From a virus: 45,339 nt of DNA. Below are positions 3,388 through 45,339 of the stretch, one piece after another. The notes under the pieces were generated by a model. The model saw only the letters and a list, made by a program, of their open reading frames with translations, made no database searches and had not been told where the DNA came from. Every line of letters starts with the position of its first letter. Position 1 is the stretch's first letter. The stretch lies in IMG/VR virus record IMGVR_UViG_3300046010_012574, positions 1 through 45,339 of that record. One strand, 5' to 3'. The position numbers and the translations under genes were made by a program.

Positions 3388-3400
3388 TTCACCTCTTTTG

Positions 3401-3471
3401 CTGGGGAGGATGGATTTGCACCACCATCTCTAATTTATGGATAACTAGCGCTTTGCTTAAGCTACCCCCCA
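3401..3471 (-). tRNA. tRNA-like element, possible tRNA-Trp (CCA anticodon)
   Basis: A 71-base segment between the SSB and HAD genes folds as a cloverleaf. The acceptor is TGGGGGG with CTCCCCA (7 pairs, one wobble), followed by the usual T8-A9. The D arm is GCTT/AAGC with a short loop. The anticodon stem is TAGTT/AATTA with loop ATCCATA (T33, anticodon CCA at 3440-3438). The variable loop is GAGAT. The T arm is GGTGG/CCATC with loop TGCAAAT. Discriminator is G and no CCA tail is encoded. Odd points are a 5-base D loop, T instead of a purine at position 37 and the short total length. It may be a divergent, degenerate or non-functional tRNA. Confidence 0.5.
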
Positions 3472-10162: not shown

Positions 10163-10762
10163 TTACTGGAGAACATACTTGTACCAATTTACAGCTGCAT
10201 ATCTGACTCCATTTGTTACTGGCTCAACTCTATGCATATATGGAAATGCCGACGAGAAGATTATGCAATCCCCTTTTTTTGGCTTATATTTGATATCAAA
10301 ATATCTAAAGCATATCTCCCCGCCATCATAATCATCATTAAAATATGCAGTAGCAGAAACAGTTCTTGGATGAGATGCAGAATCATCATTGTGATCTTTA
10401 AAAAAATCCCCAGCCTCATATCTTAAAAAGATAATATCATGATTTTTGGCAACCTTACTAACATTGTAATGCCTTGAAAATAATTGAATATTTTCCCAAA
10501 CTGCATTTTCAACTTCAGCAGACAATTTTTTTATTGGATCATCATCATGACATTCAGAAAAACTACTCGTTGAAAAAAGTTTACACCTTCTATGGTCTAA
10601 ATTTACTACTGAATGATAATCCCCACCGTCATTATGGACAACTCTTCCATATCCCAAAAATGGCTCACCATGTGTTTTAAAAATTTCGCACCACTCATAA
10701 ACTTTTTCCATTGGCATCTGATATACGGAGATGCCAGGTGCAAGATGAATTGGATTCACCAT
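10163..10762 (-). CDS. 2-oxoglutarate/Fe(II) dioxygenase, prolyl-4-hydroxylase type (copy 1)
   Basis: Uses O2, 2-oxoglutarate and Fe(II) to hydroxylate a substrate, probably a protein side chain. The double-stranded beta-helix core shows the iron triad H124-x-D126 and H177 (YMHRVEPVTNG), with R187 placed to bind 2-oxoglutarate. The AYFNDDYDGGEICF segment is the strand signature shared with the five copies at 40953-45098. The start was set at ATG 10762 (199 residues), which overlaps the zinc-ribbon stop as ATGGTGA and follows GGGA; a longer frame reaches 10822 but runs inside the upstream gene. It is isolated from the main oxygenase cluster by about 30 kb. Confidence 0.88.
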   Translation of the reverse strand: MVNPIHLAPGISVYQMPMEKVYEWCEIFKTHGEPFLGYGRVVHNDGGDYHSVVNLDHRRCKLFSTSSFSECHDDDPIKKLSAEVENAVWENIQLFSRHYNVSKVAKNHDIIFLRYEAGDFFKDHNDDSASHPRTVSATAYFNDDYDGGEICFRYFDIKYKPKKGDCIIFSSAFPYMHRVEPVTNGVRYAAVNWYKYVLQ

Positions 10763-10983
10763 TTTCCCAGAGGGCATGAAGCAACCTGCAATTTTGTTTT
10801 CATGGTCATTACACAACCACACTTTTTACATTGCTTAGTAAGATTAATCAATTCATCACAAGAGCTACATATTTCATATCTATATGATGAAACAGAATCT
10901 TCAGCATAATTTGATTGATTAAGCAAATGCCACGGTTTAGCATCCCCTACCTTTTCTTTAAACTCCTGCCAAGCACTTTTCAT
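10756..10983 (-). CDS. Small zinc-ribbon protein
   Basis: 75 residues with C39-C42 and C52-C55 (CSSC and CKKC), plus C57 and C70, giving a four-cysteine zinc ribbon. The tail MKTKLQVASCPLGKW is a pattern that, from memory, recurs in small phage proteins, often near 2OG-Fe(II) oxygenases. Function is unknown; a substrate- or partner-binding role for the overlapping oxygenase is a reasonable guess. It overlaps the previous gene by ATGA and the oxygenase gene by 7 bases. Confidence 0.75.
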   Translation of the reverse strand: MKSAWQEFKEKVGDAKPWHLLNQSNYAEDSVSSYRYEICSSCDELINLTKQCKKCGCVMTMKTKLQVASCPLGKW

Positions 10984-11216: not shown

Positions 11217-12347
11217 TTAACCAATACAGATATTATCCGCAATGCAAGTAAAACCTGGAGGACAGACGGGATCACAGACTGGTCCTGGTGGCGGTGGCTC
11301 TGCACCAACAACTACTGTACCTACTACAACGACTCCAACGACCACTGCTGGCGGTTCTGGCTCTGGCTCTGGTGGGGTGTCAGCACAGTTAGATATGCAA
11401 TAATAATCGCCATTAATAACTGCGTAAAGCTGTGTGTTTGCTTGATCCCAATAAAATTCAAAGTACTCAGACCCATGAGAATATTGAATCCCATAACTTT
11501 TTATAATGGTTGAGCTCACAACTGCGTTGTTTGCTAATCCGTCTTTAAGGATTATTCCTAATTCACTATTGATCATATAGCTGTCATAAGCATATTGAGC
11601 ATTTGCATCATACGGACCTTCAATAAGAACTCCAGCCATGCCAGCGGAATTATACAGGGCGGTATTAAACTCACCAAGCTCCATCGCCCCAGCAAAACTA
11701 CCGCCAGTTCTTAGATTATCACCATTGATTTCCCAGCCAGCAATTTGACCACTTGTAGCAAAAACAGTTCCAGTAAGGGATAGTGAATTACCATTATAGA
11801 ATAAAATGTTGTTTTCAGCGCCAACTGAGAATGTGCCATTAGATGTCCAATAGTTTAAATTATTAATATAAAGACTGTCGGCTTGAATTGAACCCCTGAT
11901 TGCAGTACTATCAAACACAGCATCTCCAGACCAAGTGATTGCCCAGCCAGCAGTGCCATCAGCTGTTATAACACCATTAGCGGCAATTGTGCCATCAAAA
12001 TTGCTACTTCTAATAATATTGTTTATAAGAGCAACATTTGCTGACAATTCATTTGCAGTAACAGACCCGGCTGCAATATGAACAGATTGAACAGAGTTTG
12101 GTAATAATCTAACCCCAGACGGACCAAGCACATCGTTTATTACTATATTAGATACTACTGTTTTTAAATTATCAAAATTTCTTTGTTGCCTTAATTGTCT
12201 AGCATTGGAACCTGTTTTGCCAACCGTAAAATCATAAATAGAATATTGTTCTGTATCTATAAGCGAGGATGAAACACCATCATGATCGTGACCACCTTCA
12301 AAAAAGACTATTGAGTTTTCTGATATAGCGCTGCTCGATCTACGCAT
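11217..12347 (-). CDS. Tail fibre / minor tail protein with Pro-Val linker and Cys-rich tip
   Basis: 376 residues. The N-terminus has GGHDHDGVSSSLIDTEQYSI, a pattern typical of phage minor tail proteins that attach to the tail tip. The middle is Ser/Asn/Gly-rich beta structure (SGQIAGWEINGDNLRTGG and similar), as in receptor-binding fibres. The C-terminus is a low-complexity linker (PPEPEPEPP, then Val-Gly repeats, then PPPPG) followed by a small disulfide- or metal-type module with C-P-V-C-P-P-G-F-T-C spacing. It is joined to the hub gene by TAATG. The linker DNA is unusual; see findings. Likely role: host-surface recognition. Confidence 0.75.
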   Translation of the reverse strand: MRRSSSAISENSIVFFEGGHDHDGVSSSLIDTEQYSIYDFTVGKTGSNARQLRQQRNFDNLKTVVSNIVINDVLGPSGVRLLPNSVQSVHIAAGSVTANELSANVALINNIIRSSNFDGTIAANGVITADGTAGWAITWSGDAVFDSTAIRGSIQADSLYINNLNYWTSNGTFSVGAENNILFYNGNSLSLTGTVFATSGQIAGWEINGDNLRTGGSFAGAMELGEFNTALYNSAGMAGVLIEGPYDANAQYAYDSYMINSELGIILKDGLANNAVVSSTIIKSYGIQYSHGSEYFEFYWDQANTQLYAVINGDYYCISNCADTPPEPEPEPPAVVVGVVVVGTVVVGAEPPPPGPVCDPVCPPGFTCIADNICIG

Positions 12348-26800: not shown

Positions 26801-29800
26801 ATCAGCCTGAGCCGCCGCACGCTCAGCTGCTTTCATACCAGTTTCTGCTAATTGATTTATATTTTCTTGTATTTTTTTGCCTCTAATTTTAAGATTTTCA
26901 ATAACCCCAGCTAATGGCTTTGCTTTTGCAGGAATAGTTGAACCGACCTTCGGAACCCTCTTCAGTCTCTCTCCTAATAAATCGCCAATAATCTCATCTT
27001 GACCAAATGGGACCATTACATCTGGTCGAAGAGCACGTTCAGCTATTTGTTTTGAAGTTGGCTTTAGTGATCTCTTTGATTCTGGAGATGTAAAGATAAC
27101 CTCTGATTTTCCGATGCGCTCGATTCTTCCGAGTGGACCACCAAGATTTGTTAAATCACCACCTTTTGCTTGTGCAGCTATATCTTTTAGAACTTTCTGC
27201 TTAGTTTTTGTCGCTACCTGCCATTCTTTATCTAAACTTCTTAAGAATTGGTATTCATCTGGCAAAGCAACACCAAGTTTGTCATAAACTGAAACTATCT
27301 CTGAAACTTTTAGTGTTGTCATTTGAGCTGCAGCTTTTGTAACTTTTGATCCACTAGCAACTGTTTTAGTAGCACTTACGGCACTAGAGACACCCTCGCT
27401 AACCGTTTCTGCAGCCCCAGCAGCCACAGATGCAACTGTGGAGCTAACATCAGCAACTGCGGCACCGACTGTTGCAGTTGCTGTGGCAACTGATGCCGCT
27501 GCAGTATCTATTGTTTCCTTGACGGCTTTTTTAGCGGCTTTAGCAGCTTTTTTAACTGGCTCAGGACCTGGAATTGATGGCAATACAGGAGTTGTTGGTA
27601 CTCTAAAACCACCGGCTGGTATCTTGCTTGTGCCAGTTACAGATGGAGGTAGCGATGGACCATAAATTGGTCTTGCATCTGAAGGCAGGGACGGACCATA
27701 TGTTGGTCTTGTATCTGGAGGCGGCATTGCTGGTCCATATACAGGACCAGGTGCTGGGGGACCATATGTTGGTCTTGTATCGGTAGGTGTTCTAGGAGAC
27801 CCAGGTGTTCTAGGAGACCCAGGTGTTCTAGGTCCACGACCTGTGCCTCCACCTCCGGGACCACCAGTAAATGTATTCCCCATGAATCTGTTGCTAGTGA
27901 ATACAGTTCCTTTAAACCCAGCCTTTAATGCTTCACTAACTCCATCGCTAACAGATTTAGCAGTCGTTGCAGCAGCATCGGCAGCATCAGCTGCAGTTTC
28001 TGCAGTTGCATCAACTGCTTTTATGGCAGCATCTAATCCAGTTAATGCATCACCACCGACAGGAAGCCCGATGGCTCGTTTAAAAATATTTTTAAGGTCA
28101 GCAGATGTTGGCGTTGAACCCTGTTGCAATACTTGCTGAGCTGACGGGTCCAATCCAGATACATCTGTTATAGCACCACGCTTTCTTCCAGACAAGAGAA
28201 CTTTTGTTGTCCCTGGCAAGGATGTTGCCTTTTGCCAATTTTTTAAAGCCCCAGCTCCACGATCAACAAGTTCGGTAACATCAATAATCCTAGACCCAAG
28301 TTTGCCAAAACCTGTTGCAAGCCTTGCAATACTCGACAGCGCCCCTGTAAAAAACCATCTAAATGAAACTGTCAAAAGTTTTATAGATGGTATCAAACCT
28401 AAAAATATAACACCAAAACTTATAGCTTTTTTACCGAGCGGTCCAAGATTTTCTACAAAATCTCTAATCTTTTGTATTATTGGTGTAAAAAATTCTATCA
28501 ATGGCTTGAAGGCTGTTACGATCACTCTTCCGATCGCCAATATTTCTTCCTTCATTATTCTAAATTTTGTTATAGTGGTATCTAGACCAATTTGCAATTC
28601 AGTCTCTAATTGCTTTTGCGCTACGTCTTCAATTCTAAAAGCACTAGACATCAATATCTTACCGGACTCAGTTCCTATTTTGCTTAAGAAATCTTTAGAC
28701 TCATCACCTGTTGTTCCATAAATTTTAGTTAATTCATCAAAAGCTAACTTTTGACCCTCACGAATTATTTTAGCTCTTTTTGTATATTGACCATTAATAT
28801 TTTCAGTAGCTTTTCTGTGTAAATTACTGATATCCACCATTTTTTTTACTTGAATCTGCTCAGTCTCAGCAAACCCGGCAGACTTTAATCTCGCATTAAC
28901 ATTTTTTTGAATTACTTCAGCAATCCTGGCTTCTGTTGTTCCCATTTCTCCTAGCGCTTTTTGAAAGACTGCCAACTGCCTAAAGGATGTTTCCATTCTT
29001 GGTCCCTGACGAACGCCGAACAATCTTGCAAACAGCTCCAGTGTTCCCTGCTCGCCCTTAATGTTTAATAGATTATTAAAACCATCTGTAAGCTTTTGAA
29101 TATTTTCCATACTTACACCAGCAGAGTAGTCAAAATCTGGTCCGAGCGCTTGATTAAGCTCACCAAGAATTACTGAATTTTGTTTTGTCATTGCAACCAT
29201 TCTTTGCAATGAAACTTTGATAGAGTTAGCAGATGCGCCGACCTGGAAACCAGAAGCAACCATCGGAGCGAGCAGCGCTGCGGATTCTGTCATTGACAGT
29301 CCGAATGTTGTTGCTGCAGCCGAGACTTCTGGGAATGCGTCTGCTAGATCTTTTAGTGATAGAGAAGTTTTATTTTCAACTAAGTTGAACTCAGCAAGCT
29401 GACCTCTTAATTCAGCAATAATATTGCTAAATTGCTTAGGGTCAGTTAAATCTAACGAAAGACCTCTTGCTGCATACTGCTCTCTCTTAACTCTTAAAAT
29501 ATTTTGCAACATTGATTCAACAAATCTTTGTGATTGTTCAATATCAACGTTACCTAATTTCTCAACAGTAGTTGTTAATTCAACAAGATCTTTAAGACCT
29601 TGAATATCACCTATGCCAAGTTCTGCAAAGTCACCTGCTAGACTTTGAACCAACACCCTGCTTGTTCCAAATTTTCTAGTTACTTGATCAAGAAGCTTAC
29701 CCAATTCCTTTGTTTGTTCAGAAGCAAGCCTAATAGCTTCTTCTCCAGATCCAAAGTTGTCAACCATAAGCTTTGTAACTCTTGCAGATTCCTGCTCTAA

Positions 29801-37666: not shown

Positions 37667-37861
37667 TCAGTTAATATCGTTTTTAAAGATATTGTGAGTA
37701 TAGTGGATAAATATTGCAATTAGGGTAGCAATACCCGCCGCTCTTTGCGTTGCGCCAGAGAGGGTAATATAAACAACATAACTACCTGCAAGAGTAAATG
37801 CTAACCCGGCAGTTATATTCCAAAGTTTGTTTATAAAACCAGACCAGTTAAATTTCTTCAT
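37667..37861 (-). CDS. Nested in-frame holin-like peptide (internal start in the surface-protein gene)
   Basis: An internal ATG at 37861, in frame with the 921-residue gene, is preceded by a perfect AAAGGAGGG ribosome site 8 bases upstream. It would give a separate 64-residue protein, MKKFNWSGFINK..., with two transmembrane helices (about 12-34 and 40-58) and a short basic N-terminus, the layout of a small holin. Either both proteins are made from one gene, or a formerly separate holin-like gene has become fused to the surface protein by loss of a stop codon. Confidence 0.6.
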   Translation of the reverse strand: MKKFNWSGFINKLWNITAGLAFTLAGSYVVYITLSGATQRAAGIATLIAIFIHYTHNIFKNDIN

Positions 37862-40432
37862 TTCAATTCCCTCCTTTATATAATACTCGTAAATGCTATT
37901 TTTAGCATAATGCTCATCATCCTCACCTTCAGCATCAACAATTTCACCTGCTGGCTCACTCCCCTCTTCTTCTTTTCGTGAACGACCTTCTGAGCCAGAA
38001 CTTGGATTAGAAGAGCCTCCTGAGCCTCCAGAACCGCCTCCTGAGCCTCCTGCTGGTGCTGTTGGTGACGCTCCGGCAGCGCCAGTAACGGCAACCGTTG
38101 CTGTTAATGTTGCAACTGCAGCGATAACTGTTTTTCTTGCGCCAACATCAATGCTTGATCCTGTTGGAACATAAGTATCAAAACCTCCGCCATAAACATC
38201 AATTTCCTCTTCAAAAGCCTCTTTGATTTCATCAGGAGCTTCCGTAAGAGCCTCAGAGAGTTCCTCTTTTTGTTCATCAGTAAAAGAATCAGCATCAACA
38301 TTTGCAAAAACCTCTTGGGCTGCCTCAGTAGATATCTCTGTAAAGTTATCATTTAAAATAATTGCTACTGCAACAGATGCCTCAATTGGTTCTTCCGAAT
38401 CAGCAATTGCATTAATAACATTATCTAAAGCTTCTACGGATTCAATATTTTCAACAAGATCAAGGGTTTGCTCTTCTGATAATTCATCAATTACTTCTGT
38501 TAATTGCTCTATACCTATAGATTCTAAAACTTCTGTAAGTTGTTCTGAATTGAGATTATCAATTACCTCTATTACATCTTCTGCCTGAATTTCTTCAGAA
38601 GATATATCTTCAATAATACTTTCAAATTCTTCTTGTGTTACTATAGTCTCTTGTGATTCTGTATCTTGCTCTGTCGTTTCTTCTGGGGATATCGGTTCTG
38701 GCTGCTGTTCTCCTTCTTGTTCTTCTTCTGGATAATCAGGAAGGGTCGTTTCAGGCTCAACAGGCTGAGCCTCCTCTTCATCCTCCGGTTGAATAAACTC
38801 AGGCTCAGTTGTCGTAGTAACTTCTGGCTCAGTCGTTGTAGTAGTTTCTGGTTCTTCTTCAGGCTCAGGTTCAGTTGTTGTCGTGACTGTTGGCACATAA
38901 ACGGTTGTAGTAGTAGTCTGGGGAGGCGATGTTGTTGTGGTACTGGTTGAAGATGTTGTTTCAGGGACTGTCGTTGTGGAAGTCGTTGAAGAAGTCGTTG
39001 AGGTTGTTTGAGGAGCAACAGTTGTAGTTGTTGTAGTTGTTGATGAATTCGGGTCAATAACAGTTGCATCAACAGTTACTTCGGGTCCGTATACACACGG
39101 ACCTACGCCTTCGCCAGAGAAACAACTTTGATTTCCCGCTTTAATGCCAAAGCGCACAGGTCCAAATCCAGTAGTTACGGGGTTGCTTCCAGAAAACATT
39201 CCAGTACTTAGCGAGTAGTTGGTGCCTTGATTAGTCCACACACCCCAGCCACCTGACGTTGTTCCGCCAATTTCATCAAGGTCGTAAAAACTAACTGAGT
39301 AGCCGTAGACATTTAAGTTGCTTGATGCTGGAGCATCCCAGTCAAGGTCTATGCTTCCATCTGCGTTTGCTACAGCAGTGAGATTTGTGACTGCGTTGTA
39401 ATATGGCGCAACCGTCGTTGTTGTAGTCGGCGGAACAGTAGTAGTTGTGGAAGTAGTCGTAGTTGTAGTAGAAGTGATAGTTGTTGTAGGTGCTACAGTT
39501 GGAGCTGTTTCATTATTCGGGGCAACTCCACCAAAGGTCGTGCAATTGCTACCTGCAGGAACACATCGCTGAGTATCACCTATTGCATTGTCAATCATTA
39601 ATACTGGAGATAGGGCTGTATCTCCAAGATTAAAAACAGCAAAGCCAAGTTTATATGTACCACTTACTGAAACTTCATAAGTTGATGTTTGCCAACCAGT
39701 AGAGCCATATGAGTTTACAGAGTAATCTCCAGTTCCCGGATTTGTAAATCCAAGAAGTGCATATGAGCGATTAAAATTATTAACTGTTATTGTCGGAGTT
39801 GATGGTGTAGAGACAGCAACAAGCGAAGTTAATGAACCATCATTAAATGGAACATAATCAGTACCCAAATAGTTCCAAGACATCGTATAAGTAATTCCAG
39901 AAGTCAATTGAACTTCACGAGTAATCCATGCAGCATCAGTTGGATTGGACTGTCCTCCATTTGCGGCAGCTTGCGCATCTGCTGTTAATTGTGCTTGTAT
40001 TGCTGTTTGTGGGGATCCAGATAAGCCAAGGGCTGTCATTGCTTGAGAAAAATTTTGCTCATTCCTTGGTTGCAGCAAAGCAGCGTATGAGGCATTGCTT
40101 GGGGAGAATGTCCAGCTTCCTGCCGATACCGCTGGGGCATAGTATGGATTGGGAGCGCCATTTCTTGTAGCACTACCTACTGCTGGATGTGATGGATGAC
40201 TAAAAGTTTTTGGACCGCTAAAAATAGTTACACCAGTACCATTGCCATTTATTGCAGATCCTAAATTGCCTGTTTGAGCCCCCCTAGACCAGCCAGTAAA
40301 TGAATTATCTTCAAAGCCAGCATTTGCTATGGGCTCTTGTGTAGAAGAAGCATCTACGGTTGGAATTGTTATTAAAGCAATAACCGCCAAAGGCAGAGCT
40401 GTCCACCAGCCTTTTCTAAAGTTGATTTTCAT
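37667..40432 (-). CDS. Large secreted Thr-rich surface protein with C-terminal membrane helices
   Basis: 921 residues, probably exported and membrane-anchored. Residues 1-28 are a signal peptide (basic start, then ALPLAVIALITIPTVDASS). Residues 30-290 form a beta-rich domain (CBM-like; TSGITYTMSWNYLGTDY). Thr-rich linkers at about 310-340 and 458-520 flank a fibronectin-III-like domain (SIDLDWDAPASSNLNVYGYS). Residues 521-745 are acidic and helical (LTEVLESIGIEQLTEVIDEL). A hydrophobic segment (about 755-775) is followed by a Gly/Ser stretch, and the last 64 residues form two membrane helices. This architecture is unlike a virion protein and resembles actinobacterial cell-surface proteins, so host origin is likely. 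Coupled by TAATG to the upstream gene. Confidence 0.8.
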   Translation of the reverse strand: MKINFRKGWWTALPLAVIALITIPTVDASSTQEPIANAGFEDNSFTGWSRGAQTGNLGSAINGNGTGVTIFSGPKTFSHPSHPAVGSATRNGAPNPYYAPAVSAGSWTFSPSNASYAALLQPRNEQNFSQAMTALGLSGSPQTAIQAQLTADAQAAANGGQSNPTDAAWITREVQLTSGITYTMSWNYLGTDYVPFNDGSLTSLVAVSTPSTPTITVNNFNRSYALLGFTNPGTGDYSVNSYGSTGWQTSTYEVSVSGTYKLGFAVFNLGDTALSPVLMIDNAIGDTQRCVPAGSNCTTFGGVAPNNETAPTVAPTTTITSTTTTTTSTTTTVPPTTTTTVAPYYNAVTNLTAVANADGSIDLDWDAPASSNLNVYGYSVSFYDLDEIGGTTSGGWGVWTNQGTNYSLSTGMFSGSNPVTTGFGPVRFGIKAGNQSCFSGEGVGPCVYGPEVTVDATVIDPNSSTTTTTTTVAPQTTSTTSSTTSTTTVPETTSSTSTTTTSPPQTTTTTVYVPTVTTTTEPEPEEEPETTTTTEPEVTTTTEPEFIQPEDEEEAQPVEPETTLPDYPEEEQEGEQQPEPISPEETTEQDTESQETIVTQEEFESIIEDISSEEIQAEDVIEVIDNLNSEQLTEVLESIGIEQLTEVIDELSEEQTLDLVENIESVEALDNVINAIADSEEPIEASVAVAIILNDNFTEISTEAAQEVFANVDADSFTDEQKEELSEALTEAPDEIKEAFEEEIDVYGGGFDTYVPTGSSIDVGARKTVIAAVATLTATVAVTGAAGASPTAPAGGSGGGSGGSGGSSNPSSGSEGRSRKEEEGSEPAGEIVDAEGEDDEHYAKNSIYEYYIKEGIEMKKFNWSGFINKLWNITAGLAFTLAGSYVVYITLSGATQRAAGIATLIAIFIHYTHNIFKNDIN

Positions 40433-40952: not shown

Positions 40953-41540
40953 TTATAATGAGCCAAAAGCAGTGCATATGTATTTAACGCCAGATTTTAT
41001 TCTTTTTGATTCATGAAAAAATGGTGGTGTTGATGGGAAAAGCACCGCACTGCCTGAAGAGGGCTTAATAAAAACAGATTGTTCTTGGAAATTTAGCTCC
41101 CCGCCAGAATAGTTATCATTAAGATACAATATTCCAGATATAGTTTCTTTAAAGACATCTCTGCCTGGATCAACATCGACGTGGCTGCCCATACTGGCAC
41201 CAGTAAAGTATTTGCTTATACCCAGTTCGGAAAAATAACCAATATTGTTTTCAATAGTGTTTCTGTATAATTCAAAAGACTCTTCCATCGCAGAATGCAG
41301 TTTTCTAAATATATCAATAATTGCTGTTTGGCTTATGACAATCATAGAAGAATTAGTTTTTTTTGTATTTCCAAAAATATAAGAACCATCGCTAGAATTC
41401 CACACTGTCCATTTTGAAATAGCATCTGATTGTTTAATTGTCTCATTTGTTCTTTCTAATTCATTAATTAAATTATCTGAATTGGGTAGGGCGTTTTTAA
41501 TGTAAAGAATTTTACTGGAGAAGATTTCGTATTCACGCAT
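40953..41540 (-). CDS. 2-oxoglutarate/Fe(II) dioxygenase, prolyl-4-hydroxylase type (copy 2)
   Basis: 195 residues. Iron ligands H120-x-D122 (GSHVDVDPGRD) and H176, with K186 in the place of the 2-oxoglutarate-binding Arg/Lys. The conserved strand is GILYLNDNYSGGELNF. Start ATG 41540 overlaps the upstream oxygenase gene by 8 bases. Last gene of the oxygenase block. The N-terminal 100 residues differ from its paralogues, so the substrate probably differs too. Confidence 0.88.
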   Translation of the reverse strand: MREYEIFSSKILYIKNALPNSDNLINELERTNETIKQSDAISKWTVWNSSDGSYIFGNTKKTNSSMIVISQTAIIDIFRKLHSAMEESFELYRNTIENNIGYFSELGISKYFTGASMGSHVDVDPGRDVFKETISGILYLNDNYSGGELNFQEQSVFIKPSSGSAVLFPSTPPFFHESKRIKSGVKYICTAFGSL

Positions 41541-42288
41541 GTATATTACCTTTTGCCCACTCCTCCTTTTGCCTTGCCTGCTGGCTTCTTACAAGCGCTT
41601 CTTCTTCCTTCCATTTCTTTTTTGTCTCTTCACTGTATTCAATTTCAGCATAATCCCAAAATGACACCATTGTGTACCTGACCCCTTTTGTTATTTCAGT
41701 AACACCGTGAATGTTTTCAACACCACCCGGAAAAACATAATAAGATAAAGCATTTGGTTTAAAAGATAAATAGGGTTTTAAATTATTACTTTTATCACAA
41801 AAATATAACTCCCCGCCTTCATAATCTCCATTTAAATAAAGAATTCCAACATACTTATTAATTTCAAATGCATTTGGAACTCCTGAATGATCTGAATTAT
41901 CGGAATGGGGGTTTGCAAAACCGCCAACATCCCATTTTTGAGCATGAGATGTATTTGGTCTTACTTTTCTTTCAAACACTTTTTCCACAGATTCTTGAAA
42001 TTTTAATTTAAGATTCTCAAAAAAATTATTGGGAAGACCAAATTGCTGCATAGTACTGTCGTCAGTAGATATTGCTTTACCAGAAGAACCATAAAATGCA
42101 ATGTCCCCCCACTTTATATTGCATTCTTCAAAAAATTGAATAATGTTTGGAACAAGTTCTTTATCTAAAAAATTTGGAATTTCTACAATTTTATTAGTTG
42201 CAACACCGAGACTTGTTTCAGGGATGACATCGTTTTGAAGAAATACAAAATTAGATTCATTTATTTCACTAATAATTTTATTTTTCAT
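41533..42288 (-). CDS. 2-oxoglutarate/Fe(II) dioxygenase, prolyl-4-hydroxylase type (copy 3)
   Basis: 251 residues, the longest of the set. H128-x-D130 (ANPHSDNSDH) and H194 form the iron site; R204 is placed for 2-oxoglutarate. The signature strand is GILYLNGDYEGGELYF and the family ending GVTEITKGVRYTMVSFWDY is clear. A charged C-terminal extension (EETKKKWKEEEALVRSQQAR) is unique to this copy and could be a coiled-coil or docking tail. The ATG at 42288 lacks a ribosome site and lies 7 bases after the previous stop. Confidence 0.9.
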   Translation of the reverse strand: MKNKIISEINESNFVFLQNDVIPETSLGVATNKIVEIPNFLDKELVPNIIQFFEECNIKWGDIAFYGSSGKAISTDDSTMQQFGLPNNFFENLKLKFQESVEKVFERKVRPNTSHAQKWDVGGFANPHSDNSDHSGVPNAFEINKYVGILYLNGDYEGGELYFCDKSNNLKPYLSFKPNALSYYVFPGGVENIHGVTEITKGVRYTMVSFWDYAEIEYSEETKKKWKEEEALVRSQQARQKEEWAKGNIHA

Positions 42289-42295
42289 AATTTAA

Positions 42296-43078
42296 TCATA
42301 CATCCTTGTTTTCTTTTTTAATATTTTTGCTATAAATTTCATCATTTATAACAAATTTTGTTGTTAAATACTTTTCATTATTTTTATAATTAACTGTAAA
42401 TTGTTTAGACTTTTTGTCCTCTACATAATTTTTGTGAATTTCGCACACCAACACTGATCTTGCGGGGTGCCCATGAATAGACACAAAACCCGCATCTTCT
42501 CTACAAAAGAAACATTCTATGTTGTGCAGATAGTTTTTATTCTCACCCCTCCAGTCTGTTCTTTCCGGATAGATGTTTTTATCGTGTTTATTAATTTTAT
42601 TATTTTTTTCAGATTCATATGTAATTGAATAATCTATATCAAATAGTTCCATCCCATCAGCATTTGCATTTTTTGAATTTAAAAGAGCCGGGGCGGAGAG
42701 GTGGTCTATTACAAGGTCAATGTCTTCCACTTTCTCGTTCAAAAAAATATGAACGCCGACCTCGCAAGGATAAGTGTTTAATTTTATTCTAATAACCACA
42801 TAACCATTATTTAATGGTAAAAATCCTACCAGGGTGCATGTTTGTTTAAAGTCTATTTTTTTTACACTTATTTGATCAAAATGAATTTTTTGCTCAATAA
42901 AAGGATTGACATGAACAACATCGCTATTTTCACTAAAATCACAAATATGTTTTTTTTCATAGCTATTGGTTAATCCATAAAGAATATTTTTTAATTGTTC
43001 CTCATTTTTAGGAGGATTTATTGTAAATCCAAAAATTTTTATATTTGTATTAATTTGCAAATTTGAATAGTGATTCAT
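42296..43078 (-). CDS. Unknown protein with a CxxC/CxxH putative zinc site, inside the oxygenase cluster
   Basis: 260 residues. No known fold recognised. The N-terminal two-thirds alternate strands and loops (VVIRIKLNTYPCEVGVHIFL). A likely zinc site is formed by C189-C192 (ECFFCRED) and C212/H215 (VCEIH). The gene lies between two oxygenase genes and starts 1 base after the stop of one of them, so it is probably co-expressed and may serve the same pathway, for example as a substrate adaptor or a second modifying enzyme. This is inference from context. Confidence 0.7.
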   Translation of the reverse strand: MNHYSNLQINTNIKIFGFTINPPKNEEQLKNILYGLTNSYEKKHICDFSENSDVVHVNPFIEQKIHFDQISVKKIDFKQTCTLVGFLPLNNGYVVIRIKLNTYPCEVGVHIFLNEKVEDIDLVIDHLSAPALLNSKNANADGMELFDIDYSITYESEKNNKINKHDKNIYPERTDWRGENKNYLHNIECFFCREDAGFVSIHGHPARSVLVCEIHKNYVEDKKSKQFTVNYKNNEKYLTTKFVINDEIYSKNIKKENKDV

Positions 43079-43079
43079 C

Positions 43080-43760
43080 TTAAGAATATTTTTCTAGGTC
43101 TGGCAAAACAACAGATTTTTCATTGTCTTTCAAAGGTTGCATCCAAAGATCAATATTTTTCTGCCTCTCTTCGTTTTCTTTTGTTCCATAATTATAAAAA
43201 GATCCTGGATTCTTTTCTGGTTTTAAAGAAAAGTTTGAAAAAACATACCTGACTCCACTCCTCACTGCTCTCACCCCATGCTCATGAGATCTCAGGGCTC
43301 CATGAATAACTAAGTCACCTGGTTGAACAGGTATTTCAATATTTTGTTTTGGATAATAAACTTCTCCGCCAGAAAATTCGCCAAAGTATACGCAAACACC
43401 CCATGAGAGCACACAGCATGTCCCCCAGACATCTGGCACTGTAAGGCTTTCGGTCATGTCTTCACCAGGGCTGTCGCAATGTGGAAGCATCTGACTCCCT
43501 TCTCCAAAATACATCATGTTTGCCAATGGATGAATCACATATTCTGGATAAATAAACTCTGAAATTTTATTCCAAACAGGAACGAGCTCTCTAACATGAT
43601 CTGTGAGCTTAAATTCCATATTTTCAAACCAATGATTGTATAAGCTGTTTTCTTTGTAAACTATTGAATTAATCAGATCAACTTGATCATTTGATATAAA
43701 GTTTTTATACCAAAAAATTTTTTCCTCTAGCTGCAATATGTTTGGATTATCTGAAAACAT
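43080..43760 (-). CDS. 2-oxoglutarate/Fe(II) dioxygenase, prolyl-4-hydroxylase type (copy 4)
   Basis: 226 residues. H94-x-D96 (LPHCDSPGED) and H161 (SHEHGVRAV) are the likely iron ligands and R171 binds 2-oxoglutarate. The usual N-D-x-Y-x-G-G-E signature is changed to YFGEFSGGEVYY and the HxD...H spacing is shorter, so this is the most divergent copy. A GTAGGAGGCAC ribosome site supports ATG 43760. Stop is 1 base before the unknown zinc-site gene. Confidence 0.88.
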   Translation of the reverse strand: MFSDNPNILQLEEKIFWYKNFISNDQVDLINSIVYKENSLYNHWFENMEFKLTDHVRELVPVWNKISEFIYPEYVIHPLANMMYFGEGSQMLPHCDSPGEDMTESLTVPDVWGTCCVLSWGVCVYFGEFSGGEVYYPKQNIEIPVQPGDLVIHGALRSHEHGVRAVRSGVRYVFSNFSLKPEKNPGSFYNYGTKENEERQKNIDLWMQPLKDNEKSVVLPDLEKYS

Positions 43761-43767
43761 GTGCCTC

Positions 43768-44427
43768 CTACGCTTTATAGAAGCACCTTATAAAGTACTT
43801 CTCTGCCCCACTAACTTTTGTAACTGCATGTTCATACTGACAGTCTTCAGAAAGAATATCTGGATGACCTGATGGGAATACCATTATATCACCGGCTTTT
43901 GGTTTGTACATAATGTACTGATCTCTTATTTTAAAAATCAACTCACCCCCATCATAGTCATCATTTAAATACATTGTGCATGTAATAGCAAAATTTTTAG
44001 TGTCGCCTGATCTATCTTTTTGATAATCGGTGTGATAAACCATTGCGTTTTCTTCTTCTTTTTTAGTAATCTCATATTTTGCAAAAGATGGACCCATCTT
44101 CTCCCAATCATCATTTTTACGAACACTATGGAATTCTAAATAGTGATTAGTTGATAAATAAAAGTTTTTGTTAATTTTGTCTATAAAATATTTCTCTTGA
44201 TTAAAGAGTAAGAGATTTTTTTTTATATCTTCTTCTTTGATATTGTTTTCTTTTTCAATATCGTAAACATATTTCCCAAACTTATCCCATTGTCGCCAAT
44301 CTTTAAAGAAAAAAGTATTACTAGAATCAATTTGTGAGTTCTTTAACAAAAGAACCAACTCTTCATAATCTGGCAGCAGATTTTTGTATATATGTACTTT
44401 TTCTGTTAATTTTTCAAATTCAATCAT
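43768..44427 (-). CDS. 2-oxoglutarate/Fe(II) dioxygenase, prolyl-4-hydroxylase type (copy 5)
   Basis: 219 residues. H132-x-D134 (VYHTDYQKDR) and H200 (YEHAVTKVSG) are the iron ligands; K210 replaces the 2-oxoglutarate Arg. The strand signature CTMYLNDDYDGGELIF is intact. Its start overlaps the stop of copy 6 by ATGA, and a GGAGATAGACAGCC ribosome site precedes it. The gene is very AT-rich. Confidence 0.9.
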   Translation of the reverse strand: MIEFEKLTEKVHIYKNLLPDYEELVLLLKNSQIDSSNTFFFKDWRQWDKFGKYVYDIEKENNIKEEDIKKNLLLFNQEKYFIDKINKNFYLSTNHYLEFHSVRKNDDWEKMGPSFAKYEITKKEEENAMVYHTDYQKDRSGDTKNFAITCTMYLNDDYDGGELIFKIRDQYIMYKPKAGDIMVFPSGHPDILSEDCQYEHAVTKVSGAEKYFIRCFYKA

Positions 44428-45098
44428 GGCTGTCTATCTCCAGTATGTTCAACTATTTGCCAAAAGAATGGGCATGTATATCTTACACCACTTTTTACCT
44501 CTGTAACTCCATGAATATATTGCATATCCCCTGGAAAGAAGTATGCTGCACCTTTTTTTGGTTTAAACTTCACCCCTTGGTTGGGAAAATATAACTCCCC
44601 ACCTTCATAATCATCATTTAAATAAAACAAACTTGATAGATCGTAATTTGGAAAATCATTTGGAAGACCAGCATCTGGACCTTCGTGCAACTCTTTGTCG
44701 GCATGAGGCTTCTGGAACTGTCCGGGGAGCCACTTAACAATAGCTGCTCTAGTTGGAATTGCTTTCACTTTATAAAAGTCTTCAACAATGGGTTTTAATC
44801 TTTGAAATAAACCATTAATAACCGGGGATATGGAAGGATTATTTTTATCTAGCGTAGATTGTGTTGCAACCCTGTCCTTCCAGTAATCAGAATCGTAGAC
44901 TACTGTTCCATTTTGGTTTACATGAGTTTCCGTCACATCCCATATTGTCAAAGATTTTGCAGACTCTTCTAAAAATTTTATTTCTTTTTGTGTCATAAAA
45001 TTTTCTAATTCAACAATATTCTCCACTCCTTTACCAAAAAATCCAGATGGAGTTATTGAAGGCTTTCTGACAACCAAAGAAGATTTTGAAGTACTCAT
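44424..45098 (-). CDS. 2-oxoglutarate/Fe(II) dioxygenase, prolyl-4-hydroxylase type (copy 6)
   Basis: 224 residues. H132-x-D134 (KPHADKEL) and H196 (YIHGVTEVKSGVRY) form the iron site and R206 the 2-oxoglutarate site. The strand signature is SLFYLNDDYEGGELYF. It is most like copy 3 at the C-terminus (HGVTE...SGVRYT). First oxygenase in transcription order; AGGAG lies 10 bases before ATG 45098 and overlaps the region just after the upstream stop. Confidence 0.92.
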   Translation of the reverse strand: MSTSKSSLVVRKPSITPSGFFGKGVENIVELENFMTQKEIKFLEESAKSLTIWDVTETHVNQNGTVVYDSDYWKDRVATQSTLDKNNPSISPVINGLFQRLKPIVEDFYKVKAIPTRAAIVKWLPGQFQKPHADKELHEGPDAGLPNDFPNYDLSSLFYLNDDYEGGELYFPNQGVKFKPKKGAAYFFPGDMQYIHGVTEVKSGVRYTCPFFWQIVEHTGDRQP

Positions 45099-45111: not shown

Positions 45112-45339
45112 CTATGTATTATCTCTTACATGAAGTCTTAACACTTTTACCTCATGAGATCCCAAAGACTGCTTTTTTTCATTCACTGCATCTCTATACC
45201 AATTGGCAAATTTACCAGATAAATTTATTGATCTAATTGCTGATCCATAATTACTATTTGCTTGATGTCTTAACATTTTTGGATCTGAGTATTTTTCAAT
45301 TTTAATTTCTGAATTGTTTAAGTTTGTTAACGATATAGG
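45112..45339 (-). CDS. Partial unknown gene, C-terminal 75 residues only
   Basis: The frame is open to the window edge and ends at TAG 45112-45114, giving a C-terminus with YGSAIRSINLSGKFANWYRD and SHEVKVLRLHVRDN. No family recognised. It ends 13 bases before the start of the first oxygenase gene, so it is probably part of the same operon. Its start and function cannot be judged from this window. Confidence 0.7.
   Translation of the reverse strand, partial: PISLTNLNNSEIKIEKYSDPKMLRHQANSNYGSAIRSINLSGKFANWYRDAVNEKKQSLGSHEVKVLRLHVRDNT

Follow-up and report, generated by a model that had tools for sequence, protein, structure and literature searches.

What does a phage do with six prolyl-hydroxylase-type enzymes? 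The question is raised by IMG/VR virus record IMGVR_UViG_3300046010_012574, a stretch of 45,339 nucleotides analyzed here at its full length (the window). Six minus-strand open reading frames (ORFs) called in the window coincide with positions that a first-pass annotation had read as prolyl 4-hydroxylase-type 2-oxoglutarate (2OG)-Fe(II) oxygenases, five of them in one operon with a zinc-site gene, and this reading is borne out by the ORFs, the PF13640 and phrog_61 family matches and the gene spacing. Related viral contigs carry the clustered genes in a conserved cassette just downstream of a gene for a fibre-type protein with an aromatic-proline repeat tail, (Phe-Phe-Pro-Pro)n or FFPP. This genomic linkage makes it likely that the cassette post-translationally hydroxylates the repeat tail of the protein encoded just upstream. 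The clustered genes, with the ortholog slot of each oxygenase, are as follows.

44424..45098, minus strand: A, 2OG-Fe(II) oxygenase (PF13640), slot o1, the most conserved member of the cluster
43768..44427, minus strand: B, 2OG-Fe(II) oxygenase (PF13640), slot o5
43080..43760, minus strand: C, divergent 2OG-Fe(II) oxygenase (phrog_61, active-site residues), slot o4, long branch
42296..43078, minus strand: zinc-site protein of 260 aa, CxxC...CxxH (motif found by eye)
41533..42288, minus strand: D, 2OG-Fe(II) oxygenase (PF13640), probably slot o2
40953..41540, minus strand: E, 2OG-Fe(II) oxygenase (PF13640), slot o3, long branch
45112..45339, minus strand: C-terminal part of c1, a DUF6065 (PF19541) protein, as an open ORF cut at the window end; whole in L012:9286-9987

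Contig L012 overlaps the window by 5,325 bases at 99.85% identity and extends the cassette beyond the window end, with the gene order portal, major capsid protein, tail-fibre-type gene, FFPP gene, c2, o0b, c1 and A. A scan of viral contigs with gene A matched at least 599 stretches, the best 80 of which all encode A at 80% identity or more; matches beyond those 80 may include other oxygenases. The recurring gene row is o0a - c2 - o0b - c1 - A (o1) - o5 - o2 - o4 - o3, with members missing or added, often together with a short-chain dehydrogenase/reductase (SDR) gene. The cassette is present in more than 100 IMG/VR loci. At least three oxygenases, and up to 11, occur in 156 of 162 loci, a set that includes five pieces of the window and two loci from metagenome-assembled genomes (MAGs), and a whole-record search of 16 long cassette records found 6 to 13 in each. 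These and the following counts were obtained with a simple ORF caller on related loci that were not de-replicated, several being pieces of one contig, so the p-values below overstate.

In the lineage of the window, the gene preceding the cassette (L012:7291-7740) encodes a fibronectin-III (FN3) protein that ends in nine FFPP units, and it stops 97 bases before c2. Elsewhere the tail consists of (FFPP)n or mixes FFP with FFPP units, and in the examples tested it is attached to FN3 or PASTA domains. Of the 81 cassette loci whose upstream flank measures 2 kb or more, all but L111 (80 loci) have an aromatic-proline run, in each case on the cassette strand. The run consists of 4-50 units of [F/Y]-F-P or [F/Y]-F-P-P and lies 81 to 2,319 bases from the cassette.

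The association also holds in the reverse direction, when viral contigs are searched for DNA coding FFPPFFPPFFP and the stretches listed are counted. Among 120 such stretches, 113 lie in open frame as FFP(P) and 91 have an oxygenase. The 74 listed FFPP loci with at least 3 kb downstream contain an oxygenase in 66 cases, two or more oxygenases in 59, a DUF6065 relative in 57 and gene A in 58, whereas 53 listed control loci with a collagen-type GPQ repeat contain an oxygenase in four, a DUF6065 relative in three and gene A in one (Fisher p 7e-22 for oxygenases, uncorrected for kinship). LLPP-coding DNA, a second control, gave 13 stretches, one with an oxygenase, and an FF run occurs in 0/118 collagen loci. 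Cellular genomes gave FFPP DNA in 1/296 and 0/191 cases, the sole match being a small MAG contig (G017:C62) that carries FFPP, two further oxygenases, c1, c2 and A in a rearranged order. Random co-occurrence across related phages, the outcome that the first-pass annotation had named as speaking against its idea, was thus checked in both directions and did not occur.

This linkage bears on a different explanation, in which the oxygenases act with SDR, FkbM-like and glycosyltransferase genes to decorate a small molecule or surface glycan, and the FFPP protein is a mere late-operon neighbour. SDR genes lie in or beside the cassette in 48 of the 156 loci with at least three oxygenases and FkbM-like genes (recognized by eye, without a Pfam match) in 17, while GT2, NTP-transferase and radical-SAM genes occur there more rarely. 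The core genes have medians of 69-90%, compared with 43% for the fibre family c3, as would suit an unchanging substrate. However, repeat DNA alone retrieves the oxygenases far more often than the GPQ repeat does, and the link outlasts changes in gene order, which makes decoration of a glycan or small molecule unlikely. Gene sets are kept despite altered order in the main cassette, in the L165/L168 contig and in compact variants that read FFPP-A-ox-DUF and FFPP-DUF-DUF...ox.

The repeat could instead be a DNA-level tandem expansion without protein function, linked to the oxygenases by shared ancestry. Its short unit and variable copy number fit this idea, and the kinship of the loci inflates the independence of the counts. 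In the 3,258 units of 214 distinct repeat regions, F occupies position 2 in 3,065 units and position 1 in 2,765, with Y at position 1 in 279; the choice of these regions by protein pattern and FFP content, however, favours F and makes the amino-acid constancy partly a product of construction. Codon third positions differ among the repeats, both within the L012 array and overall, and this synonymous variation indicates that the arrays are not perfect DNA copies. The open frames, the FN3 or PASTA domains that bear the tails and the strong purifying selection on the linked gene A also speak against a functionless expansion, the least probable of the alternatives considered here.

Some repeat features vary between loci. 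Among loci that have A, FFP triplets were found in 16/17 where DUF6065 relatives number two or more and in 0/8 where there is one (noticed by eye, then tested), a pattern that is confounded by descent and to which the window lineage itself is an exception. Collagen was rejected as a general substrate, since G-X-Y runs of eight or more occur in only 16/162 loci. Three FFPP proteins (L132:5871-7169, L203:3-782 and L281:3560-6478) continue into what appears by eye to be a Hint/intein-type domain ending in HNK, and other FFPP proteins end in a short Cys-rich tail.

A, B, D, E and the lone sixth copy, F, exceed the PF13640 cut-off of 27 bits, and C, at 17.6 bits, falls below it. All six match phrog_61, and C is counted as a family member on the basis of that match, its BLASTP matches to the sister oxygenases (E 6e-7 to A) and its place in the tree. 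The earlier reading of HxD...H and an Arg/Lys in every copy is confirmed at four alignment columns, which hold H, D, H and R/K in all six window copies and in 950 of the 954 rows that are complete at these columns. Within the cluster, A to E and the zinc-site gene share one strand, with intergenic distances of -8 to +7 bases. Pairwise alignment runs end to end for A and D (31%) and for B and E (26%), and in most of the remaining pairs the similarity lies mainly in the C-terminal half. A profile of A matched five PDB sequences at E <=0.01, all of them prolyl hydroxylases (best E 2e-4, about 40 residues). A defence-system reading was set aside, as PADLOC yielded a generic 2OG model and two matches with E near 0.009. 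PHROGs 2297, 3531 and 274 also match these oxygenases, under labels ("DNA endonuclease", "ferrochelatase" and "DNA endonuclease V") that are apparently erroneous and could misdirect phage annotation.

The copies appear to be old. In the tree, A joins o1 (100/95), B joins six o5 rows (100/99), C joins six o4 rows (97/94) and E joins six o3 rows (98/88), and all four placements have starred support. For D, BLAST gives o2 as the nearest slot (35% over 85% of its length), but the tree does not join the two with starred support. The tree tool flagged C, D, E and F, all on long branches, as unsure. With one ortholog slot per copy, the five clustered oxygenases look like old paralogs rather than recent duplicates, contrary to the lineage-specific duplication for which a phylogeny had been proposed as a check. 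Gene A has a median identity of 81% to 77 relatives, compared with 52% for the portal. Between the window lineage and other phages, the core genes A, o0b, c1 and c2 have medians of 66-81%, and B, D and E of 27-35%. Non-identical rows with printed values give a nonsynonymous divergence (dN) of about 0.07-0.12 for gene A and a synonymous divergence (dS) above 1 or saturated; four rows at 28% identity, probably a fixed-offset artefact, are not quoted. These substitution patterns indicate that gene A is under strong purifying selection.

Such conservation would also fit a fixed host target. A Pseudomonas prolyl hydroxylase acts on EF-Tu, and the phage oxygenases might likewise modify host proteins (EF-Tu, ribosomal proteins) and so redirect translation in the infected cell. 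Sub-threshold similarity to NCBIfam models of the PKHD-type/YbiX group of Fe2+-dependent dioxygenases is seen for F, A, B, D and E, the best being F at 57.6 bits against a cut-off of 143. Modification of host proteins nevertheless leaves both the FFPP association and the location beside tail-fibre genes unexplained, and it is considered very unlikely.

Two partners of the oxygenases in the cassette are c1 and c2. Two copies of c1 match PF19541 (DUF6065) at 88.4 and 104.8 bits, against a cut-off of 26.6, and DUF6065 is present in 16/16 long cassette records. Neither of two c2 copies has a Pfam match; one shares phrog_7084 with c1, and c2 is a relative of c1. A structural model of c2 (predicted local distance difference test score, pLDDT, 76) has dUTPases and dCTP deaminases as its 50 best VIA-align rows (Z 9.3-10.3; root-mean-square deviation 2.6-5.3; 109-139 residues). 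By prediction, c2 thus has a dUTPase fold, which the Pfam name does not convey, and a shared fold is not a shared function. Its TGIVDSD and GTPYLQ segments, aligned by eye, are ones that we take to resemble dUTPase motifs 3 and 4; motifs 2 and 5 were not recognized.

That fold underlies a further alternative, in which the cassette modifies DNA bases or nucleotides, with 2OG base hydroxylases, DUF6065 as a nucleotide-binding relative of dUTPase and an adjoining ribonucleotide reductase. A gene of the ribonucleotide-reductase family does lie in or beside the cassette in 31/156 loci. A gene of this family also precedes the portal in a Streptomyces phage without FFPP DNA, a phage absent from the A and c2 tblastn matches. 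The TET/JBP model PF12851 scores A at 22.3 bits, below its cut-off of 34.9, and the other five oxygenases are unlisted at E up to 1, while the closest solved sequences are protein hydroxylases. Nucleotide modification, which again leaves FFPP unexplained, is therefore highly improbable.

DUF6065 relatives are also found outside the cassette. Near ribonucleotide reductase and tail genes, haloviruses (HF1, VOLN27B and relatives) carry relatives of c2; in the two examined (L090:8857-9741 and L091:6857-7690), flanks of 7-9 kb contain no oxygenase. In two Sinorhizobium plasmids, a DUF6065 gene lies directly behind an autotransporter gene (L172:7977-8705 and L174:8004-8735); apart from this neighbour, the cellular context of DUF6065 is uninformative.

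Under the preferred explanation, hydroxylation of the FFPP tail, each oxygenase would bind Fe(II) and 2-oxoglutarate and hydroxylate the prolines, or possibly the phenylalanines, of the repeat. Different paralogs may take different repeat positions or already modified repeats, and the DUF6065 proteins may hold or present the repeat. (FFPP)n is very hydrophobic, so hydroxylation would raise its solubility and offer attachment sites; the product could be a more soluble, stiffer stalk or adhesive tip. Some phages perhaps glycosylate the repeat too, as glycosyltransferase and SDR genes join some cassettes. Position beside tail-fibre-type genes suggests a virion fibre, and the modified repeat is probably located there. 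It is simpler to assume one repeat protein offering several positions in each repeat than a separate substrate for each copy. In a more specific form, to which we give even chances, the cassette is a phage "assembly line" that hydroxylates every repeat of an (aromatic-Phe-Pro-Pro)n tail, with a constant core and interchangeable oxygenases for further positions. That core would comprise two o0-type oxygenases, A and two DUF6065-family, dUTPase-fold proteins repurposed as repeat holders.

Several observations weigh against hydroxylation of the repeat, beginning with the fact that linkage is not catalysis. The position of the nearest oxygenase could be assigned at 53 of 80 listed FFPP loci: 43 have it downstream and on the same strand, nine downstream but on the opposite strand, and one has it upstream. 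In eight of the 74 FFPP loci the searched stretch contains no oxygenase; six of these have no PF13640 match on the whole record (7-38 kb, possibly fragments), and two have oxygenases elsewhere. The oxygenase counted at FFPP locus L281 is unconfirmed by PF13640. Oxygenase number and repeat number are uncorrelated (Spearman p 0.27, n=31). DUF6065 relatives occur without a nearby oxygenase, within the 7-9 kb searched, in two haloviruses, one MAG region and three bacterial plasmid records. A itself, for which the superfamily predicts a double-stranded beta-helix fold, is modelled poorly (pLDDT 55; best Foldseek match PHD2, E 0.15), and its Foldseek matches were left out as evidence on account of this low-confidence model. 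Finally, for the precedent of Paramecium bursaria chlorella virus 1 (PBCV-1), a review reports that hydroxyproline was sought in virion proteins without success. The papers drawn on are PMC10202952, PMC9301287 and PMC7019647.

Loci sharing the capsid family were compared as well. A single oxygenase without FFPP, a further point against the proposal, occurs in 7/80 of them. A is present in 3/80, all three with FFPP, and FFPP is present in 1/77 loci without A (L414, whose contig ends inside the FFPP gene). This covariation is weak because at least two of the three A-bearing loci belong to the window's own lineage. Two capsid-family relatives (L429:16455-20123 and L459:9753-11847) encode one oxygenase, a c2-like protein and a protein with a WCPWW motif close to its N-terminal end, with no FFPP, and the L429 cassette also has a gene that reads by eye like a flavin-dependent tryptophan halogenase.

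The cassette differs from known systems in several respects. The profile of A matches a "Prolyl 4-hydroxylase" chain, 5c5t (E 0.0022), presumably the PBCV-1 enzyme. PBCV-1 has one such enzyme in an algal virus, whereas tailed phages here have many paralogs with DUF6065 proteins beside an aromatic-proline repeat. Oxygenases of cyanophages and marine phages (phrog_61) belong to the same family, and tblastn of A matches 35 phage records, all below 60% identity. In the one cyanophage region examined (L093), the oxygenase genes lie outside such a cassette. DUF6065 elsewhere (haloviruses, MAG, plasmids) lacks these oxygenases nearby; here it is doubled and joined to them. In the mimivirus collagen lysyl hydroxylase/glucosyltransferase system and in plant extensins, a repeat structural protein is hydroxylated and sometimes then glycosylated, a likeness that involves other enzymes, repeats and hosts. 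The cluster by blastn and a c1 copy had no match in named phages, and FFPP DNA was found in 0/5 named phage records tested. The enzyme family and the idea of viral prolyl hydroxylases are already known, but no account of the cassette, its FFPP partner or the dUTPase-like c2 fold, and none of DUF6065, turned up among the results listed for searches of the open-access PubMed Central literature; cassette, partner and fold appear new.

The profile of A found two loci in cellular genome contigs, both small MAG contigs, one of which (L165) is a cassette with FFPP. A cellular origin was rejected on this result; L165 is probably a mis-binned phage. Capsid protein and DNA polymerase of the window lineage are 51% and 41% identical to those of Streptomyces phages such as Braelyn (Stanwilliamsviridae), a similarity that makes an actinobacterial host likely.

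Three further features of the window lie away from the cluster.

10163..10822, minus strand: F, lone 2OG-Fe(II) oxygenase (PF13640), downstream of a fibre-like gene
11217..12347, minus strand: fibre-like protein upstream of F, with a Pro-/Val-rich, Cys-containing C-terminus and no PHROGs match
3400-3471: tRNA-Trp gene

F lies on a long branch and groups at 92/77 (unstarred) with the lone oxygenases at FFPP loci L187 and L197. The fibre-like protein is a possible substrate of F, which would form a parallel enzyme-fibre pairing. The first-pass annotation had proposed three proline-rich segments of the window as targets of a virion- or envelope-protein modification system. Tape-measure (27660-27850) and fibre (11280-11390) segments are indeed 30% Pro, but the surface linkers (38870-39500) are Thr-rich with 8% Pro; they belong to a 921-aa protein (37667-40432) with a signal-like N-terminus and long Thr-rich linkers. 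The linkage to a proline-rich fibre-type protein upholds the general idea, with the FFPP tail outside the window as the candidate instead of any of the three segments. The zinc-site gene, whose co-occurrence with the oxygenases in other phages had been proposed as a check, was found only in near-identical contigs (six loci at 100%). Its product has no Pfam, PHROGs or NCBIfam match and none in named phages. Found in the window lineage only, it is not a conserved cassette partner.

Phage 2OG-Fe(II) oxygenases often have no known substrate, and the linkage described here names a concrete and unusual candidate. If the proposal is true, phages make a hydroxylated repeat polymer on a fibre-type protein; to our knowledge, a hydroxylated hydrophobic biopolymer of this kind is described nowhere else. 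The dUTPase fold would then be used outside nucleotide metabolism, and DUF6065 would be placed in a functional context for the first time. Another possible use of the enzymes is as tools for hydroxylating hydrophobic peptides rich in proline.

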